In this document: positions 19,901 through 33,328 of the stretch, piece by piece | How positions within the stretch are numbered: position 1 is the first letter of the stretch | Layout of the letters: each line of letters starts with the position of its first letter | DNA from: Ianthella basta | Taxonomy: Eukaryota > Porifera > Demospongiae > Verongiida > Ianthellidae | Direction of reading: 5' to 3' | NCBI GenBank assembly: GCA_964019415.1 | Contig: OZ025868.1 | Location: forward strand, 3,142,961 to 3,206,960 | Length of the DNA stretch: 64,000 nt | Program-made: the position numbers and the translations under genes | The notes under the pieces: model-generated | What the model was told of the DNA's origin: nothing | Database searches by the model: none | Seen by the model: the letters and a program-made list of their open reading frames with translations, nothing else

Positions 19901-21601
19901 CTCTGTAGAGAGGTGGTCTTGTAGCAGAGGTGCTTCGTGTGTGGTGGAGTACACCATGCAGAAGTTGAGGGACTGGTCTCTGTAGAGAGGTGATCTTGTA
20001 ACAGAGGTGCTTCATGTGTGGTGACATACACCATGCAGAAGTTGAGGGACTGGTCTCTGTAGAGAGGTGGTCTTGTAGCAGAGGTGCTTCATGTGTGGTG
20101 GAATGCACCATGCAGAAGTTGAGGGACTGGTCTCTGTAGAGAGGTGATCTTGTAGCAGAGGTGCTTCATGTGTGGTGGAATGCACCATGCAGAAGTTGAG
20201 GGACTGGTCTCTGTAGAGAGGTGGTCTTGTAGCAGAGGTGCTTCGTGTGGGGTGGAGTACACCATGCAGAAGTTGAGGGACTGGTCTCTGTAGAGAGGTG
20301 ATCTTGTAACAGAGGTGCTTCATGTGTGGTGACATACACCATGCAGAAGTTGAGGGACTGGTCTCTGTAGAGAGGTGGTCTTGTAGCAGAGGTGCTTCGT
20401 GTGGGGTGGAATACACCATGCAGAAGTTGAGGGACTGGTCTCTGTAGAGAGGTGATCTTGTAGCAGAGGTGACCCATGTGTGGTGACATACACCATGCAG
20501 AAGTTGAGGGACTGGTCTCTGTAGAGAGGTGGTCTTGTAGCAGAGGTGCTTCGTGTGGGGTGGAATACACCATGCAGAAGTTGAGGGACTGGTCTCTGTA
20601 GAGAGGTGATCTTGTAACAGAGGTGACCCATGTGTCCCCGTCTACCTTCTTCCTCAGGTACCTGTGTCGAGTTGAGGAAATGAGGCAGAGCTTGAGGATC
20701 ATCCATCAGTGCCTGAACAAGATGCCAGAAGGAGAGATCAAGGTGGACGACACCAAGGTCTCCCCTCCCAGCCGGAAGGAGATGAAGGACTCGATGGAGG
20801 CACTCATTCATCACTTCAAGCTCTTTACTGAAGGGGTTCAGGTTCCTCCTGGGGCCACCTACACAGCCATTGAGGCACCAAAGGTGAGGCGGGGGGGAGT
20901 TGTGTGAAGTGAAGAGGTTGTGTAGACGTTGTTGACAGTAGAGGCTCACTGCTGGACGGTGTGTGTCCAGTGTTCTTGCCAGGCTGTTTTTGAAGGGTAC
21001 AGAACCCTTCTTGCTTCCTTTAGAACTTTCCTTGAGGCTGTAAACATGGCACTGTACCCTCCTTGAAAGGCACAGTGCCACTAGTCATGCGGTGTGGGCA
21101 ATAGCATTTGCATGCATACACACCGTGTCCCAAGGCTCTCCCTGTATTCTGCTGGTGCACTTTGCACAGGAAGATGGCACCCTCTCCCACACCCAACCAT
21201 CCACTAGCCACTCCTCACATGACTGTTGGTCATCTGTACCCTTCTTGTATTATTTTCTGAGGAGAACACTGGGTATGTCACGCCATTCTCAACACTCTTC
21301 TCTCCGTTGTAGGGCGAATTTGGTGTGTACCTGGTCGCTGATGGAACTAGCAAGCCCTACCGCTGCAAAATAAGAGCCCCGGGCTTCTTCCACCTTGCTT
21401 CACTGGACATGATGTCACAGGGACACATGTTGGCAGATGTTGTGGCGATCATCGGTGGGTGGGGCTGTGGGTGGGGCTGAGGGTGGGGCTGTGGGTGGGG
21501 CTGTGGGTGGGGTTGGGGGTGTGGTAGAGATGTGGAGCTGCATGTGTGGGCGTGTCCGCTTGCCTGTGTATATATCAGTAGATGTTGGTTTGTGTGTATA
21601 T

Positions 21602-23828: not shown

Positions 23829-24442
23829 GTATACACATACGTATACACATACACACTGGTGTATGTATATCTCACAAGTACTGTTGTGCACTCAATATGA
23901 GTATGAGTCACTCCTGTGCCTACTCCCCCCCCCCCCCCCCCCTTACCATCCAGTCCAACAGATGCAGGCCCATAAGATGACCGAGAGCCGGGAGATGACT
24001 GTCCACTCAGAGACTGGTCACCTTGAGCTAGCAACCTCCAAGATGGCCGCCCTCCTGGAGAAGCTCCAGGCATATGTTGAAGATGTGCTGAGTGGGAAGG
24101 TGGAGGGTGACGTACAAGTGGGGCGGACACTGATGGAGGCTCTCTCCAAAGTCCCTGACATTCCTCCGGCACAGTTTGACACTCTTCTGAACAACAGCAT
24201 GCAGGTTAGCAGGAGGTGGAACTTTGTGTAGACTTAGAGGGAAGGCGCGTGCTTGTGTGGTGATTAGGTTGTCACTTGCTGTGGTGTAATTTCACCTCTT
24301 TCTTCTGTCTCTTATCACTCTCTTTTCCCTTCCATTTTTCTCCCTAATGCCTCCCCAGGACCTGTTGATGGTGCTGTACTTGTCAAACCTCACACAGATG
24401 CAGATGTCACTAGGAGAGAAACTATCCTTTCTCACAATATGA
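21952..24442 (+). CDS. EIF3F: Translation initiation factor eIF3 subunit F
   Basis: MPN-domain subunit of the eIF3 complex, which binds the 40S ribosome and organises initiation. Six exons: 21952-22128, 22355-22431, 23278-23415, 23563-23654, 23954-24204, 24359-24442. They total 819 nt, an exact frame for 272 aa. Family blocks are clear: [35 protein letters not shown], the stretch [30 protein letters not shown] and [13 protein letters not shown]. The C-terminal helices include [20 protein letters not shown]. The protein lacks the long Ala/Pro-rich N-terminus of mammalian eIF3f. The start is the first in-frame ATG and directly precedes the conserved domain. The gene lies 116 bp downstream of NDUFS2 on the same strand. 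Its last two exons are partly duplicated downstream (24657-25928) and a further scrap lies at 31793. Confidence 0.95.
22606..22901. mobile_element. 296 bp MITE with terminal inverted repeats
   Basis: It lies in eIF3F intron 2 after a CA array. The left end GCATACCGTATAGCGGGAAA continues into AATTTTGC. The right end reads GCAAAATTTTTCCACTATAT then GGTATGC, an inverted copy of about 28 nt with few mismatches. The interior is A/T-rich and non-coding. Length and termini fit a non-autonomous DNA transposon; the superfamily is not assigned. Confidence 0.75.
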
Positions 24443-24656: not shown

Positions 24657-25928
24657 GATGTGTTGAGTGGGAAGGTGGAGGGTGATCACGACGTACAAGT
24701 GGGGAGGACACTGATGGAGGCTCTCTCCAAAGTCCCTGACATTCCTCCAGCACAGTTTGACACTCTTCTGAACAACATCATGCAGGTAAACAAATGGGAA
24801 GGTTGTAAAAGGAAGAGGTGTGTGCATGGTACAAAAGGTAGTATTTATTGCTTCCAGTGACTTGCAAAAATGGTTAGATTGCACAGAAGATTCTACCAGT
24901 GTACCAGTATCAGTCAGCTGAAACAGTGACGAATGAGTGCTAGCCATTTCACTCTCTTTTCCAACCAAATGACAGTGATGCTAACGGCTAGCTAAGCTCA
25001 CTTTTCACCTACATGCTGAGCTTTCTGGAGTAAAACACACAGTCTTTGAACACAGGACAGGCAACCAGCCTACCAGCCTTCTACACCGAAGTGTCTCAGG
25101 AGACTGGGGGGGCAGAGCCTGACGGCAACCAGTGATTGCCTTCCCCAGCTAGTCATCCTACAAAGATGGAAGAGCCACAGACAGCTGTTTCGCCCTGATT
25201 GGGGCTCATCAGTATGGCGTACTGATGGATGGTAGGATGAGTAGCTACTCTTGTATCCACTACCAGTGAAACACTTGTGGTTTCAACAAGAGAGAATATT
25301 GAGACACTTCAGTGCCACTATGAGACACTTCAGTGTAGAAGGCTGGTAGGCGTAAAATCTAGTGATTAGCCTTTGTTCAACCTAGCCCGGCCTGGCCGTT
25401 GCAGTGTCTTACTGCAGTGAACCGACCTCTCATGTATTGGTTAACTATTTCTGTGGTGATCTGTAGGCCAGCACATTGAGATGCCACTAGCTGTTCCCTG
25501 GTTGCAGTGTTGCCTGGTGATATCCTGAGTAGGAGATAGCTGAAAGCAGTCCAGATTGAGTGCCTGTTCAGAGTGGTATTATCTGAATCTCTCCATTGCA
25601 ATGGTAAAGCTAATGTGTTTAAATGACTACTATCTTTCCTCTGCCTTTCCCACGATGATGCGCCTACATCCGGCGTTTGCTCCAGTATACTCCAAGATAT
25701 GATCTTCTTATTTTGCATGGTTAGATCATGTTATAGGTTCCCATTCAAATGTACAGTATTCCCAATAACTCCCTCCCTTTTGTTACAATCCTTTCTCTTC
25801 CACTCCCTCCCTATCCCCTATTACCACTCTGCTCCCTCCCTCAGGACCTGCTGATGGTGCTGTACTTGTCAAACCTCACCCAAATGCAGATGCCACTAGG
25901 AGAGAAACTTTCCTTTCTCACCATATGA
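24657..25928 (+). pseudogene. Partial duplicate of eIF3F exons 5 and 6
   Basis: Bases 24657-24786 repeat the second half of eIF3F exon 5 (from [10 protein letters not shown]), with two extra in-frame codons (HD) and an intact donor. Bases 25845-25928 repeat the whole last exon with its acceptor, an open frame of the same 84 bp and a stop. The 5' half of exon 5 is absent, so this is not a full gene. Because exon 6' keeps an acceptor and frame, eIF3F transcripts could in principle use it as an alternative last exon, changing only one residue (Ser to Pro in QMQMPLGEKL). Confidence 0.8.
25069..25350. mobile_element. 282 bp MITE with 30 nt terminal inverted repeats
   Basis: The left end starts CCTACCAGCCTTCTACACCG and continues AAGTGTCTCA. 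The right end TGAGACACTTCAGTGTAGAA followed by GGCTGGTAGG is its reverse complement with a single mismatch in 30. The element has inserted between the two duplicated eIF3F exon fragments. The interior has no gene. Confidence 0.8.
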
Positions 25929-26185: not shown

Positions 26186-28144
26186 ATGATGGCGCAGTTG
26201 GATGAATTGTTTCGCAAAGAATTTGAGAAGGCGCATCAGTGCTACATAAGAAAACAACGCAACCCATTCTGTATCCTCTGCCGTAGGAAGAACACAGGGA
26301 TCATTGTTGCCAGTCCCTTCTTCCCCCGCTCTGTACGTTCACTCACCGGTACACCTCTCGAGCACACAATAAGTGGATATATAGGGTACTGCAAGTCGTG
26401 CGAAGATATGCTAAGTGAGAAGGAACAGGGCTTATACTCACTGGTGCACGCACCTCTGGCGGAAGATTTCAACTGTGCTGTCCATGTCGAAGGTGAAGAC
26501 GCTGCGAGAGTTTGTTACTGCGCGTTATCCGTCTGGTGGCGTTTCGCCTCTCTGACTTGCTTGGCATATGACAAGTCTAATAGGGGGAAGGAATTTCGCA
26601 AGCTGCTTGACGTAGTGCGTTGGTGGCTCCATAAGCCAAGAGGGTACTTGCCATGTGGATTGCAGTTTTTCATCTATGCACTCCACCCAGGTGATGCTGC
26701 AAAGCTGCGGGAGCATGGGCCAGAACTGGCTGCCACGAAGTTTTATGGTCATTTGAACAATGAAGCTGGCCGTGTCTCTCTTATTTGCATGGGCCCCGTA
26801 CGTTGCATGTACCTGTACTTTCCCTGGTCCTGCTTTCAGACTTCCAGCCCCATAGACATTCCTGCAGGAAAAGAACGGCTTGAGCTAGAAATGTACATGG
26901 AAATAATGGCTTCTGAATGTAGAATAGGATCTTCCAGGCAGCTATTACCTGCAGTCATCAATAATGACAAGGATGAAGAACTACGTCTAGAATTCGAAAA
27001 GGCGCAGGTTTGTTATAGAGAGAAGACACCCAATCGCTTCTGTATATTGTGTCGCAAAAGAAATTGTGATAAAAGGGTCCAATTGAGCCACATCACCCCC
27101 CATTCAGTAATCAAGTCAGCAGGTTGTGATATTGTTTCTACTGACTCCACAGGCCAGCAGATAGGCCATAGCATGAGCGGGTACAGAGGTTATTGTAAAC
27201 AATGTGAGCGTATGCTGAGTGATAATGGTGAAACGAACTTTAACCGCCTCATTCACAAGCCTCTTGTTGAGGATCCCGACTGTGCTGTCCGCATCACGGG
27301 CAAGGATGTGCGTGATGTGTACCATTGTGCCTTGTCCATTTGGTGGCGTCATTCCAGCCTTCATGGCCTGGCCTCAGAAAAGTCGGATGACGGAAAAAAA
27401 GTGCGCCAGATCCTTGAGAATATACGCACCTGGCTCCACGACCCCAGTGATGACTATTTGCCTGTAGGATTGCAAGTGGACTTCAACACATTACACAAAG
27501 ATGACCGTTCCTTTTTGAAAGAACAAGGCATAGATACTGACCTAGACTATGACCCTTTTGTCCATGATGGAAGTCCTATAGTGCAAATTCACTTGGGACC
27601 CTTGATCTGCAAATACGTATGCACAACAGATGGATCATCACTTCCGATTTCTTTGTACCTGGACATACCGGAAGGAGATAAACGAAGGCGTATACCTCAG
27701 GATGTCCTGATAGGATACTGGCAGCGTCTCACAGAAATACGTATGAGCACACTATTGCGGTGCAGCAAGGAGAAGCTACCCTCCTCATCGTCCACATTGT
27801 ATGTGCATAAGCTGGACTTAATTCCACAGGGCATTGCTCACATCCTTGATGACTGTGTAACCTTTAGATTTCATCGGTGCATCAGGGATTTGACCTGGTC
27901 AAATGCAACTATGGATGTCTCTATTAAGCTAAAGATATATAAACTCAAAGATAAGCCAGGTGATGGTCCACCTTATAATGCATTGATGATATTTTCCGGA
28001 CACTATGATCACAAGAGAATTCGTCTTTGGCTTCAGTCTGAGACAGGCACTACTTTTTCAATTGATGAGAAAGTTCATGTTCATCTGCTAAGTGAAGACC
28101 ACAAAAGAGATTTGGAAGACTTAGTAGCCAGGTTGCGTTGCTGA
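26186..28144 (+). CDS. Two-module member of an unrecognised Cys2-SHxxP-Cys2 family (paralogue A)
   Basis: A single-exon frame of 652 aa; I do not recognise a named family. Module 2 (about 256-652) is full length and aligns along its whole length with the two neighbours at 30153 and 32117. It has FCILC (Cys286, Cys289), SHITPHSV (His302), GYRGYCKQCERMLS, CALSIWWR, YLPVGLQ and a C-terminal RIRLWLQS. Module 1 (about 1-245) repeats only the N-terminal two thirds; there the SH pair is SP (residues 43-44) and the loop before GYIGYCKSCEDML (Cys69, Cys72) is shortened. The pattern Cys-x2-Cys, His-x2-Pro, Cys-x2-Cys-Glu resembles treble-clef HNH nucleases; that is inference. No signal peptide or membrane span. 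Start: ATG at 26186, with another at 26189. Fragments of eIF3F lie just upstream. Confidence 0.75.
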   Translation: MMAQLDELFRKEFEKAHQCYIRKQRNPFCILCRRKNTGIIVASPFFPRSVRSLTGTPLEHTISGYIGYCKSCEDMLSEKEQGLYSLVHAPLAEDFNCAVHVEGEDAARVCYCALSVWWRFASLTCLAYDKSNRGKEFRKLLDVVRWWLHKPRGYLPCGLQFFIYALHPGDAAKLREHGPELAATKFYGHLNNEAGRVSLICMGPVRCMYLYFPWSCFQTSSPIDIPAGKERLELEMYMEIMASECRIGSSRQLLPAVINNDKDEELRLEFEKAQVCYREKTPNRFCILCRKRNCDKRVQLSHITPHSVIKSAGCDIVSTDSTGQQIGHSMSGYRGYCKQCERMLSDNGETNFNRLIHKPLVEDPDCAVRITGKDVRDVYHCALSIWWRHSSLHGLASEKSDDGKKVRQILENIRTWLHDPSDDYLPVGLQVDFNTLHKDDRSFLKEQGIDTDLDYDPFVHDGSPIVQIHLGPLICKYVCTTDGSSLPISLYLDIPEGDKRRRIPQDVLIGYWQRLTEIRMSTLLRCSKEKLPSSSSTLYVHKLDLIPQGIAHILDDCVTFRFHRCIRDLTWSNATMDVSIKLKIYKLKDKPGDGPPYNALMIFSGHYDHKRIRLWLQSETGTTFSIDEKVHVHLLSEDHKRDLEDLVARLRC

Positions 28145-30152
28145 CAGCATTAATTCTGGTTCATGTATGACATTGTGTAGTGTATGTGCATGACTGGTTT
28201 TGCATGACATTGTGTGTATTATTGATCACATGTTATATATTGCTCACTCACGTGTATGCCATCACCTACATTATGCATGGTTGGGTTTGTAAAGTTTCTG
28301 CACATGCGTGATTGATTACAGAGTTGAGTGCCTCACGTGCTTGTATCCAGTGAAGCAATTATCGTCTCCTATTTAAGTTGTTTAACATCCGCGGGTTTCC
28401 CGCAAAGTCAGCATGCCCACCCAAGGTGTGCTTGCAATTGTGTCCTGGGTCTGATGACATCACATGCAGAGTGCATGAAATGGAATTTTGAACCAAATGC
28501 AAGCATGAATATTTAAATGAATCAAAGTGCAAGCACATGCATGCTGTGAAAAGTTCAAATTGAAATAATTAAGATTTCAGTATAATATATATATATAAGT
28601 GCATGATATGAACTGTAAGCTACATATATAATTTACAGGAAGCAGTCTTGCCAATCTTAAATGGGTGATTATATTATAGAACTTTAATGTGGTGGAGGCT
28701 CATGCTACAATAATTATTGGTAAGAAGCTTAAGAGGAGTTACATACATAGTAAGCCTTACACATAGACACAGGAGGGAACCGGACTGGCAACACAAAACC
28801 TCGTGCGTCTATGATATGAGCGACCATGCATGATCTGTAAGCCAGTGTACAGAATTGCGCTTTTAATTTCATTCAACTGCAATAAGCGTGCATGAACCAC
28901 TTTTTGTGTAGATGGGCCATACAATTAAACTCCAAAAGTCCATGGTAAAAGAGACCAACAGTTAACATTTTTCTTATTGTAAGAGATCTTGAAAAGCATT
29001 GCGAGCAAGCTAGGAGAATACTTCAATATTAATATTGTTGCATATTGAAGACCCTATAACCCGAGAAACTGGACTATCGATGAGGAATCTGGTACCAGGA
29101 GACCACTCGATCATGAAAGTGCCACAGTTGAGCCAGCAGTGAGAGAAAGTAACACTGGATATAATGTACGTCCATGGAAAGAGAGGAAGCACAGCCTCTA
29201 CTAGCCAACAACAACAGAATGTCGTATGGGTCAGTTCAGGCCTAAGAAGGCAAAATGCATTATACACTGTATGCTATACATTGAGGAACTGTATTACACA
29301 TGATTATATACACTCTCCCTTATACGTAATGAAAATCATTTAATTAACACACATGCTTGTGTGTAATTTTATTTATTGTTGGTTGCCATGGCAATGCCAG
29401 AAACACCAGAGGAAGAGACTGGGTATATGTTGTATATATCCCAGCTAGCTGGGTTATATTTATGATATATAAGTTCCCCAGGAGCTTGATATCATGGGCT
29501 CTTATCGTTAGCCCATCGGCTTCATGTGCAAAGTTTAAATTTCACAGACGCATGTGTTCTCTGCACATTTGGCTGTACTAGTGATTTCTTTAATGTGGTA
29601 CAGGCTCATGCTACGTTGTCAAGCAGATTTATGGAGCGTTGATGAACATTCACGTAGCTGTAGGGCTGGTTCCAGTAAAATGTTTCCACCACGAGGGTCT
29701 TCATCAGTTACAGTTTGTAACAGTTTTGTAACTGATTTAGGTCTCTCTGAGACAGACAGCCTCCCTTGTCCCAAATGACACTAAATAAAGCATTGCAATC
29801 TACCTCTGTAGCTATACGGCACTGGCAGCAGCCTCGAAATCTGCATAAAGGTCAAAGAGCACGTGATTGCCGTTATCTCGTACCTATACTGTAATAATAT
29901 AATATCTACATAGTAGCTTCGTACCCAGGCCTTCGATAGAAAATGGATATTCGCCCGGCAGCCAGATCAGCAACCAAACCTAATACTAAATAATTTATAC
30001 AGGATATATAGCGCAACCTACGGTGTTGCTGTATACTATTTTGCTGAGCTGGCCTGCAGCTGGGTACGAGGAACCTATACGTAGTAGAGCCTGAGGGTAA
30101 GAACTTCTGCTGTCTCTCTCGAGCGGCAGGTCTCTGTAGGATTCTTCTTGTC
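28145..30152. other. Gene-poor interval between paralogues A and B
   Basis: A/T-rich, with no supported exon. Around 28904-28964 it matches the 3' flank of fibrillarin (34272-34345), sharing GATGGGCCATA / GGTAAAAGAGANCAACAGTT. The phrase AGGCTCATGCTAC occurs near 28697 and 29603. A minus-strand frame of 85 codons at 29267-29010 has no recognisable domain and is not called. Confidence 0.6.
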
Positions 30153-31334
30153 ATGGAATCACCATATGAACTTCTTCGCCAAGAATTTGAACAGGCTAGA
30201 AGCTGCTTTATACAAAATAGAAAGAACAAGTTCTGTATCTTGTGTCGCAGGTACAAGCCCAAAGATATCGTACTGAGCCATGTTATTCCACATTCCGTGC
30301 TGAAGTCAACAGACAAGAGTGTTCACAAGATTGGCCTCGCTGGTCAAGAGATGGGTCCCAGTCGGCTAGGATATCGAGGGTATTGTAAGTCGTGTGAAGG
30401 TATGCTGAGTAGGGGCGAACGGCACTTCAATCAACTCATGCACGCACCTCTGGTAGACAACCACAACAGCGCTATCCACGTCAGAAGCAAAGACGCTGCC
30501 GCCATTTATCACTGTGCCATTTCTATGTGGTGGCGTTTTTCCACCCTTTCTTCCTTGGCCTGTGAGAAGTCTTCTGAAGGAGAAGACTTTCGGAAACTTC
30601 TTGAACGTGTTCGCGTGTGGCTGCACAAACCCAATAATACTTTACCTTTTGGATTACAAGTATTCTTCGTTGCACTCCATTCAGAGGATCTCTCTTGTTT
30701 GCGAAAACTTGGTTTGGGATTGGCTGCAACAGGGTTCTATGGTACTGTCCAAAGTCCTGAAGACAAACTTGCCAATCTTACCTGCATGGGTCCATTGCAC
30801 ATCAAATTCGTGTATCTAAAATTGTCCTGCTTTCCAGTTTCCAGTCCCATAGACATTCCTGCAGGGGATGCCCGACAACAGTATTCCATCCAAAACCTGG
30901 CAGAGTTTATGACATCTCTTAGGGACATCATGCTAAACCTTGAGTTGCGTACAAGCAAGGAAGTGCCACCCCCCTCTGCACACATATACCAAATGAGGAA
31001 CATGGACATCATTCCGGAACAAATTGCGGCAATTGATTCGAAGACAGCTGTTTTTCATTATCATCGTCTGATCAGGGTTGAGACATGTAGAACAACCGCT
31101 GGCAATGTGAAGCTTGAGCTGTATAAATACAAGAAGGCGAAAGGTGATGAGCCCCCATATGATGCGCTGGCCACACTAACCCAAGTGAATGGAAGAATCC
31201 GCATCTGGCTTCAGTCTGACCCCACAGGCAAGAGCTTTGAATTCCATAAAGATATAACTTCCCGGCTGCCCTTTCTGGTTGACTTCTGTGTGGCACAATT
31301 GAAGAGTTTAATTTCTGAGATAAAATTACCATGA
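30153..31334 (+). CDS. Single-module Cys2-SHxxP-Cys2 protein (paralogue B)
   Basis: A single-exon frame of 393 aa, the clearest one-module form of the family. It has FCILC (Cys28, Cys31), LSHVIPHSVLKS (His43), GYRGYCKSCEGMLS (Cys78, Cys81), GERHFNQLMHAPL, CAISMWWR, VRVWLHKP, LPFGLQ, LAATGFYG, CMGP, SPIDIPAG, and the C-terminal block PPYDAL...RIRIWLQS. The first 90 residues look like a zinc-binding HNH-like head; the remaining 300 have no fold I can name. No introns, signal peptide or membrane span. The start ATG at 30153 aligns with the starts of A and C. The mismatch with the intron-rich surroundings suggests retroposition or acquisition; no poly(A) tract is seen after the stop. Confidence 0.78.
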   Translation: MESPYELLRQEFEQARSCFIQNRKNKFCILCRRYKPKDIVLSHVIPHSVLKSTDKSVHKIGLAGQEMGPSRLGYRGYCKSCEGMLSRGERHFNQLMHAPLVDNHNSAIHVRSKDAAAIYHCAISMWWRFSTLSSLACEKSSEGEDFRKLLERVRVWLHKPNNTLPFGLQVFFVALHSEDLSCLRKLGLGLAATGFYGTVQSPEDKLANLTCMGPLHIKFVYLKLSCFPVSSPIDIPAGDARQQYSIQNLAEFMTSLRDIMLNLELRTSKEVPPPSAHIYQMRNMDIIPEQIAAIDSKTAVFHYHRLIRVETCRTTAGNVKLELYKYKKAKGDEPPYDALATLTQVNGRIRIWLQSDPTGKSFEFHKDITSRLPFLVDFCVAQLKSLISEIKLP

Positions 31335-32116
31335 AACTTACGTAGTTACATAATTAATAGTAATTATTATTGTATAATTTGTATTGTAAAATTTTATTAT
31401 GCCTAGTGTATATTTATATGCACACGTGTACATTTGCTTAGTATTAATTGCTGGCCATGCTGAACGAGGAAGGAGAGGTGGAGGATGGAAGTAAGGTACT
31501 GTAGCTATAGATGTACATATACAGTATAAAGGCACCATGCATGGCTTGAAACAACAGACAAGGTGTACAACAGGACCCTGCCAACAGAATGCTCTGCACA
31601 CAAACCAAAGGGCACTAACACAGTACAATAGTCTTTGTCGGCTGCACACAAACAGTTAGTACAACTGAATGTAGCTACCCTGCAGTGTCAGTGTTCTAAA
31701 GCTACCTCCCCCTCCCTCCCCACACACACAATCGCACATCTCACAAGATGACACCCTTACATAATATAGCTACCAACTGTAGCTAGCTACTTGCCAAACT
31801 TCACACAGATGCAGATGTCACTAGGAGAGAAGCTCTCCTTTCTCACCATGCATATGACCCCTCCCACCTCACATTGATGTGTGTTGTATCGTTGTGCTGC
31901 ATGCAGTAGGGTGTGTTAACTCATTTTGTTGTTCCCAGTTCGTTCACGTCTTTATTTGCGAGAAGTAGTGATTTGTCTATAGAATTGTGGGTAACTTTTC
32001 CGTATACGTACAGCAAACGGCGAATCTGATTGGTCAGTACAGCTCTGGACTAGACCCCTCCCCTCCCCTCCCCTCCCCGACGCCCTTGTAATTGACCTTT
32101 GCTTTCTGTACGATCT
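31335..32116. repeat. Interval of duplicated scraps of fibrillarin intron and eIF3F tail
   Basis: Bases 31511-31765 match a fibrillarin intron segment at 35191-35507 in the same orientation (shared ATGGCTTGAAACAA, ACCAAAGGGCAC, CACAAACAGTTAGTACAA). Bases 31793-31865 match the end of the last eIF3F exon (ACAGATGCAGATGTCACTAG, then the GAGAAGCTCTCCTTTCTCAC region). Further bases to about 31990 resemble the sequence between the eIF3F exon copy and paralogue A (25930-26040). So paralogues A and C share an upstream module derived from eIF3F. Confidence 0.75.
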
Positions 32117-33328
32117 ATGGCGATGGACCCTGATGAATTGCTTCGCACTGAGTTTGAAAAGGCATATGAGTGTTTTGACAAGAATAAAGCCAACAAGTTT
32201 TGTATCCTTTGCCGTAAGAAGAACACTGACAAACGCGTTCAGTTCAGTCACATTATACCCCAGTCGGTGATGAAGTCAGCAAGCAAGGAAGAACCGTTGC
32301 TACACTCCGTCGGACAGTCAGGTCAAGAGGTTGGCCACGGTGTTAACTTTGGGTACAAAGGATACTGTGGGTCATGCGAAGACATGCTAAGTAAGAAGGG
32401 TGAAAAGCGCTTCAACCCTCTCGTGCACGTACCTTTGTTAAGCGACTTTAACAGTGCTGTCCATGTTGAAGGTGACGATGCTACGAGCGTTGGCCACTGC
32501 GCGTTATCCATGTGGTGGCGCGTCTCATCCCTGAGCAATTTGGCACGCGAAAAGTCTGATGAGGAGAGGGATTTCCGTAAGCTCCTCGAGTGGGTCCGCG
32601 TGTGGCTCCACAATCCAAGGGAGTACTTGCCATATGGAGTGCAGTTTTACTTTGCTGTTTACCACCCAGATGATGTCTCTGAGTTGCGAAGACATGGGTT
32701 GGACTTGGCTGCAACAAAGTACTACGGACCTTTAGTAGATCAAGACAGACATCTCCGATATATTTGCATGGGCCCTGTTCGCTGCTGTTACGCGTATTTC
32801 AAATTGTCTTGTTTTTCAAGTTCCAGCCGCATACACATTCATGCAGGAGAAGACCGACTTCGTTGGCCCGACATGGAAGAACTGAAAGGAGACATGTGGA
32901 ATCTTAAGGATGGGTTGATGCAACGTGAACTGCGTGTACGTAATCAAGTACCATCTTCCTCAGAGGGTGATCCTGAATTGGTTTCGTCAGCTGACATAAT
33001 TCCAACTAGATTATGTACCAACGTTGATGGTGAATTGCAATTCCATTATCATCATCTGTTCGGGGAGAAGGACTTTGGCCTCATGCAACTTAAACTGTAC
33101 AAACCTAACAATGGGAGACGTGATGATCCCTCATGTAATGCAGTGCTAGAAACACCCACCACATCTGGAGGGCTCGTTCGCTTGTGGCTACAGTCTCTTC
33201 CTCCGGAGCACAAGAGATTTAAAATTGCTGAAAATGCCCCGGTGCATAGGCTGGCTGACAATACTGTGCAGAGTTTGAAGAGAGCAGTTGATAACTTGAA
33301 TATGTTGGTCCTTTTGTTTCCGAGCTAG
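32117..33328 (+). CDS. Single-module Cys2-SHxxP-Cys2 protein (paralogue C)
   Basis: A single-exon frame of 403 aa from ATG at 32117 (a second in-frame ATG at 32123 is also possible). It carries all family marks: FCILC (Cys29, Cys32), FSHIIPQSVMKS (His45), GYKGYCGSCEDMLS, KRFNPLVHVPL, CALSMWWR, VRVWLHNP, YLPYGVQ, LAATKYYG, ICMGPVRC, HYHHLF, RLWLQS. A conserved acidic/aromatic start (DELLRTEFEKAYECF) matches A and B. Differences from B are spread evenly as in a diverging functional copy, with no frameshift or stop. Function is not known; a zinc-stabilised HNH-like domain is inferred from the Cys/His spacing only. Upstream are eIF3F-derived bases shared with paralogue A, downstream the fibrillarin gene. 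Confidence 0.78.
   Translation: MAMDPDELLRTEFEKAYECFDKNKANKFCILCRKKNTDKRVQFSHIIPQSVMKSASKEEPLLHSVGQSGQEVGHGVNFGYKGYCGSCEDMLSKKGEKRFNPLVHVPLLSDFNSAVHVEGDDATSVGHCALSMWWRVSSLSNLAREKSDEERDFRKLLEWVRVWLHNPREYLPYGVQFYFAVYHPDDVSELRRHGLDLAATKYYGPLVDQDRHLRYICMGPVRCCYAYFKLSCFSSSSRIHIHAGEDRLRWPDMEELKGDMWNLKDGLMQRELRVRNQVPSSSEGDPELVSSADIIPTRLCTNVDGELQFHYHHLFGEKDFGLMQLKLYKPNNGRRDDPSCNAVLETPTTSGGLVRLWLQSLPPEHKRFKIAENAPVHRLADNTVQSLKRAVDNLNMLVLLFPS

Follow-up and report, generated by a model that had tools for sequence, protein, structure and literature searches.

What are the three intron-free genes that lie one behind another at positions 26186 to 33328 of this window (the whole analysed stretch of 64,000 nucleotides from the sponge Ianthella basta, assembly GCA_964019415.1, contig OZ025868.1, positions 3,142,961 to 3,206,960, in whose numbering all coordinates below are given unless stated otherwise), and where did they come from? 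The initial annotation took them for derived HNH-like zinc proteins, marked by an ordered signature of two cysteines, SHxxP and two further cysteines and joined to a new 300-residue partner domain. Our preferred answer, which we hold as a whole at about an even chance, is that the cluster represents a eukaryotic branch, since duplicated, fused and kept under selection, of a zinc-type protein family carried by prokaryotes and phages, and that three of its four copies (A2, B and C, described below) act on nucleic acid, probably by cutting it.

All three frames are uninterrupted, lie on the plus strand and run without an internal stop in the list of open reading frames of the window, in agreement with the first description of three single-exon, same-strand genes of 652, 393 and 403 amino acids (aa). 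The count of three paralogues had to be corrected, since gene A (26186-28144, + strand, 652 aa) holds two copies in one frame and the cluster has four: A1, the first half of gene A (residues 1-259; 26186..26962, +), and A2, its second half (residues 260-652; 26963..28144, +), a complete copy in frame with A1, together with gene B (30153..31334, +; 393 aa) and gene C (32117..33328, +; 403 aa counted from the ATG, its entry in the open-reading-frame list beginning at TTG 32099), both complete. The other copies are 39-46% identical to B, with a mean column identity of 56% in the four-row alignment. Much of the shared motif list originally drawn up stands, as FCILCR, GYxGYCxxCExMLS, CA(L/I)SxWWR and LPxGxQ each occur in 4/4 copies; SHxxPxSV is found in 3/4, A1 having SPFFPRSV, and the C-terminal motif is better given as R(L/I)WLQS, present in the 3/3 copies that retain the C-terminus. 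A1 retains all four Cys, the Glu that follows the last of them and S-x2-W-R; in the alignment of the copies it has Ser-Pro where Ser-His is expected (26312..26317, +), its loop is shortened and its C-terminal domain of ~120 residues is absent, and because A1 breaks off there, a domain border near residue 265-285 is suggested. The cluster sits on a 16.6-Mb contig; in the assembly as a whole (209 Mb), protein searches, with the best candidates scored, found no further copies, so that the multiplication first proposed is confined, as far as these searches show, to this single locus.

The relatives of these genes were sought in prokaryotic genomes, plasmids, viral contigs, phage records and the host's own assembly. 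PHROG_26326 ('unknown function') matches C (E 7.6e-6, its best match in the cluster), B (7.1e-4) and, weakly, A (0.016) over ~110 residues; in the host assembly it finds gene C at E 1.3e-4 and nothing else better than E 6.5. A profile built from 33 members of the family (29 of prokaryotic or plasmid origin and 4 from viral contigs, taken from the 38 sequences that passed a motif expression after removal of near-copies) scored B at 40.2, C at 33.8, A2 at 30.7 and A1 at 14.8 bits, compared with 5.8 bits for the best of 2,000 shuffled and 4 reversed control sequences. Alignment of the host copies to the family with hhalign gave E 1.7e-10 over the whole length and 1.2e-11 for residues 1-160 (129 columns), E 0.17 for residues 160-270 (score 14.9 vs 11.3-18.2 in 5 column-shuffled controls) and no match to the 33-member set for residues 275-393 (E 0.42). 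By these comparisons the host copies share ancestry with the prokaryotic family over residues ~24-160, a region that corresponds to the Cys/His core and the helices following it. The kinship with bacterial SHxxP zinc-type proteins first proposed is strong over this part (40 bits vs 5.8), and the partner domain is new to a smaller extent than the 300 residues claimed, with ~60 residues (~100-160, the SxWWR helices) common to prokaryotes and the last ~120 (residues 275-393 of gene B; 30975..31331, +), which A1 lacks, unmatched.

The correspondence is one of order as well as of score. PHROG_26326 and its prokaryotic kin, proteins of ~300 aa marked by an SHIIPKF signature, have the same ordered Cys pairs, SHxxP, CxxCE, E-x2-F and S-x2-W-R over ~140 residues, and the family match extends to the S-x2-W-R and R-x2-L helices, which lie well away from the Cys/His motif. 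The host copies differ from these kin in that they are without a Gln-Asp pair, have the Lys after SHIIP replaced, carry an extra N-terminal helix and the ~120 C-terminal residues, and are multicopy and fused. Conservation was counted in 64 distinct frames, selected by profile score alone from 68 loci (33 loci from DNA patterns and 35 from whole-genome profile searches) and including 39 frames outside the 33-member set; in that set, picked by a motif expression, conservation of the Cys, Ser, His and Pro is built in. Aligned to gene B, Cys28-x2-Cys31 (30234..30245, +) is Cys in 56/56 and 53/56 family sequences; Ser42-His43-x2-Pro46 (30276..30290, +) is Ser in 51/56 (Ala in 4 and Glu in 1), His in 56/56 sequences covering the position and Pro in 54/56; Cys78-x2-Cys81-Glu82 (30384..30398, +) is Cys in 60/61 and 59/61 and Glu in 55/61 (Asp in 5, Asn in 1); and Ser124-x2-Trp127-Arg128 (30522..30536, +) is Ser in 53/58, Trp in 53/58 and Arg in 55/58. 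The set of marks (four Cys, S-H-x2-P, Glu and S-x2-W-R) is complete in A2, B and C, while A1 is without the His. Among the prokaryotic members, three from Bacteroidota (L070, L072 and L108) keep the SH and have lost at least one of the four Cys, making them possible zinc-free variants, and two from haloarchaeal plasmids (L094 and L097; 414 and 408 aa) have an extra C-terminal CPVC..TNHR stretch unlike the host C-terminus.

The prokaryotic family is thinly and widely scattered. Relatives on viral contigs were found by a motif scan and led, through SHIIPKF- or ENHIFF-like DNA patterns, to 33 loci, of which 19 are in alignment A3 and 22 in alignment A4 (L048, L070 and L072 were left out of the first extraction); they include Bacillota, Pseudomonadota, Chloroflexota, Bacteroidota, a Desulfobacterales bacterium and two archaea, one of them Asgard (Lokiarchaeota). 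A family-wide profile matched 11/398, 4/400 and 19/395 (Bacteroidota) genomes of three phyla, each count including the phylum's seed genome, and 10/72,556 plasmid records match one query and 1/50,697 phage records another. The 10 matching plasmid rows are labelled 'hypothetical protein' (7) or have no feature (3), and no recurring gene partner was seen among 7 of the 10 plasmid neighbourhoods. One member, on Exiguobacterium plasmid p1 (L100), is immediately preceded by a DNA cytosine methyltransferase gene and has an AlwI-type restriction enzyme nearby; of the other plasmid members, one is beside a VapC gene and one near IS elements. No member tested reached a cut-off in Pfam (26 members) or NCBIfam (6 members). 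At E <= 0.1, Pfam gave HNH_5 in 5/26 (best E 0.014), HNH_2 in 2/26, one FmdE treble-clef match (E 0.0066) and seven single matches to unrelated families, and NCBIfam a weak match to the HNH nuclease-like protein HlpB (L075, E 0.067). An NCBIfam racemase match in one member (E 0.15), a PADLOC match to type IV Cas7 (L071, E 0.019; the other 5 of 6 members run had none) and a Cas8b match on gene A (E 0.9) were taken as chance. A literature search with the string SHIIPKF found no paper, and among the papers listed for HNH, sponge and horizontal-transfer topics none was evidently on this family.

Given the Cys/His order, the core was compared with four-cysteine nucleases of the His-Me finger type. 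In published accounts, T4 endonuclease VII (Endo VII) and Gmet_0936 have a CxxC, a DH and then CxxCN (PMC6083498, PMC3765158), with D53-H54 of Gmet_0936 and N77 after its Cys76 at corresponding places, as in Hpy99I (PMC3765158, PMC6083498). T4 endonuclease VII, Hpy99I and Gmet_0936 have the same order as the host copies, CxxC - xH - CxxC-x, an active-site residue standing immediately behind the last Cys, and the host copies depart from the T4 endonuclease VII type by Ser in place of Asp before the His, Glu in place of Asn after the last Cys and a longer spacing from the His to the second CxxC. From 26 sequences headed by a viral-contig member, AlphaFold2 produced a confident model, with a mean predicted local distance difference test score (pLDDT) of 93.1 and a predicted template modelling score of 0.92. 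The gene B model had a mean pLDDT of 63, at about 80-93 up to residue 160 except for a weak loop near 51-70, with a strand at 39-43, a strand at 73-78 and a helix at 79-102. Both models have a similar order of strands and helices, including residues ~160-270, a likeness that is not independent, as the B model used prokaryotic rows. The predicted order of elements fits a strand-strand-helix zinc fold, and the core looks like the four-cysteine HNH/endonuclease-VII type with both metal-ligand positions altered.

Nuclease activity of the copies is on this comparison plausible. In the mechanism that we propose, the four Cys would hold one structural zinc and the strand-strand-helix around them would form an endonuclease-VII-like core, in which His43 would serve as general base (a His stands at this putative general-base position in 3/4 copies) and Glu82, perhaps with Ser42, would occupy the places usually taken by the Asn and Asp metal ligands; A2, B and C would then bind and probably cut nucleic acid, and A1 would be a non-cutting partner in the same chain as A2.

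Several results weigh against the preferred reading. The canonical metal-ligand positions are Ser and Glu in all 4 copies and mostly so in the family, and the D40N, D40A and N62D variants of Endo VII are reported to be inactive (PMC6083498). The Gln-Asp before the second CxxC, frequent and not universal in the family (Q 49/59, D 41/60), is absent from all 4 copies, which have R-L, N-F, M-S and I-S (B, C, A2 and A1) in a loop whose alignment is uncertain, and the zinc site itself is not absolute, the second, third and fourth Cys being missing in 3/56, 1/61 and 2/61 family sequences. Gene C resembles Pfam HNH_5 (PF14279) weakly over the first CxxC and SHIIP, covering 22/56 profile positions at E 0.0024 and 18.2 bits against a cut-off of 27.5. 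Neither the viral-contig model, searched against the PDB, nor the gene B model, searched against solved structures, had a significant match, and no HNH structure was among the matches listed for either. On the side of origin, no sampled prokaryotic lineage is close enough to be named as donor, the best scores of the host profile being 31.8 bits (a viral contig) and then 27.0.

Four classical HNH domain sequences of the host, aligned to the cluster with hhalign, scored 18.9, and the best of 30 shuffled controls 21.3; Pfam matches on the host genes are all below cut-off, with none in NCBIfam, and the host HNH_5 domains that do pass the cut-off do not align with the cluster copies. The latter belong to a separate HNH_5 cluster on contig C20 (3.59-3.66 Mb; L005-L010), in which four domains exceed the Pfam cut-off and two fall short of it; the four that were read show the classical DH..P...CN residues, and an open reading frame at L005 has two CxxC-type units. 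Of the original label 'derived HNH-like', the four-Cys/His order holds up, and the HNH profiles, below their cut-offs, and the host HNH domains, no better than shuffles, do not bear it out. Classing the cluster as an HNH nuclease is not warranted, because two defining residues that were tested are absent.

The strongest competing explanation, which we consider a real possibility at somewhat below even chances, accepts the same family and drops the nuclease: the zinc core would only bind nucleic acid or protein, and the His would be structural. The replacement of both canonical metal ligands in most of the family and the absence of the frequent Gln-Asp from all 4 host copies speak for it, as does A1, which is without the His, yet has kept its frame. 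Against it stand the His itself, retained throughout the covering family sequences and in three of the host copies, and the rate at which A1, the sole copy without it, evolves; A1 is faster than C (33 vs 15 changes, chi-squared 6.75, with A2 as outgroup; 35 vs 20, 4.09, with B as outgroup), though not clearly faster than B (31 vs 24, 0.89), tests that rest on the branching order within the four-copy clade.

As to where the cluster came from, the four copies form one clade (support 96/89) on a branch of length 1.23 among unresolved deep lines, in a tree whose bootstrap had not settled and for which the software flagged long branches that join, including one beside the host copies. Within the clade C lies outside, then A2, then A1 with B, an order that conflicts with the identities, by which A1 is nearest to C, and with an exon fragment common upstream of A and C. 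No close relatives of the host proteins were found in IMG/VR, the contigs of 84,980 species or plasmids by close-relative patterns or tblastn, which distant kin could escape, and in phage records such a search yielded a single match (41.7% over 48 residues; E 4). A host-only profile matched 1/7 member-holding genomes, weakly (E 0.008) and in query residues 192-240 only, and 0/395 Bacteroidota genomes, a weak test, as the family-wide profile matched 19/395 drawn likewise. The most likely origin is an ancient transfer out of a prokaryote or phage, because the sequences combine a patchy, mobile prokaryotic spread with a lack of introns in the host. A somewhat unlikely alternative is an old eukaryotic family of vertical descent, lost in most lineages, in which the absence of introns would be secondary, for example through an ancient retrocopy. 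The long deep branch with no donor nearby and the existence of an Asgard member are what it would lead one to see; the patchy presence on plasmids, viral contigs and scattered genomes fits mobility better than vertical descent, and that all three genes are intron-free also tells against it.

Whichever way they arrived, the frames are maintained. The ratio of nonsynonymous to synonymous substitution (dN/dS), one of the checks that the initial annotation called for, is 0.25-0.40 at dS 1.1-2.3 in 5/6 pairs (NG86; A1-A2 gave no dS), as for coding frames under selection, and for A1 vs C the dS is 1.1 by NG86 and 1.6 by YN00. When the matching stretch of gene C was evolved neutrally in simulation to 0.5 change per site, a mean of 10 stops arose and 0/1,000 runs were stop-free. 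With dS above 1 and dN/dS of 0.25-0.40, the copies are old duplicates kept as coding sequence. That they are unexpressed relics in the course of being lost, as the truncated and altered A1 might suggest, is very improbable given this constraint at dS > 1 and the lack of stops where ~10 are expected under neutrality. Independent convergence on the four-Cys/SHxxP pattern is more remote still: treble-clef zinc motifs are common, but the match covers distant helices, gene B scores 34 bits above the best control and hhalign gives 1.2e-11 over 129 columns.

Evidence on how the copies multiplied comes from the neighbouring gene. The cluster is directly downstream of EIF3F, of which an exon piece at 23947-24228 finds eIF3F chains of solved structure (E 8e-9) and lies within a frame that matches Pfam MitMem_reg. 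EIF3F seems to bear introns, with exon pieces near 23947-24228 and 25845-25928, the second (25845..25928, +) being an open frame after AG that ends in TGA and is the putative last exon. A partial copy of this exon recurs ~270 bp upstream of gene C (31788..31849, +; 89% over 62 nt), weaker similarity extends to 31952, and the local alignment score is 130 vs <=31 in 200 shuffles. One duplication step thus took part of the presumed last exon of EIF3F along, at the level of DNA, and gene C most likely arose by DNA copying, not by retrotransposition of a single message. In the preferred reading, an old transfer would have come first; the old duplication in place, with that piece of EIF3F carried along in one step, and the in-frame joining of an A1 without its His and C-terminus to a complete A2 are shown by the sequences themselves. 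The 62-nt exon copy is, at 89%, far closer than the near-saturated synonymous sites of A1 and C, and may be more recent, have undergone conversion or still serve a function.

The cluster ties a multicopy eukaryotic locus to a scattered prokaryotic family whose members, as far as tested, stay below the Pfam and NCBIfam cut-offs and whose confident model had no significant solved-structure match, and gives a first handle on both. If the proteins are active, they would make up an enzyme family of His-Me-finger-like type with altered metal ligands; if inactive, a nuclease-like zinc core would have been reused for binding. The fused A1-A2 gene, which pairs a copy lacking the key His with one that has it, offers a ready comparison. 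It is conceivable, and in our estimate improbable, that a eukaryote has here adopted a nuclease-like zinc protein of phage or plasmid origin and made of it a small dedicated locus for innate defence or DNA processing, with a fused His-less and complete domain, a new C-terminal domain and an unusual Ser-His/Glu metal site.

Two further features of the window were seen. A match to the type I hammerhead ribozyme lies at 25174-25218 (- strand; 35.9 bits, gathering threshold 34), between the two presumed EIF3F exons, and at least 18 hammerhead matches, at least 13 of them over the cut-off, occur in the assembly, the copy in the window not being among those listed. At 20166-21081 (-), two overlapping frames of an internal repeat look like the product of a tandem repeat, not an evident gene.

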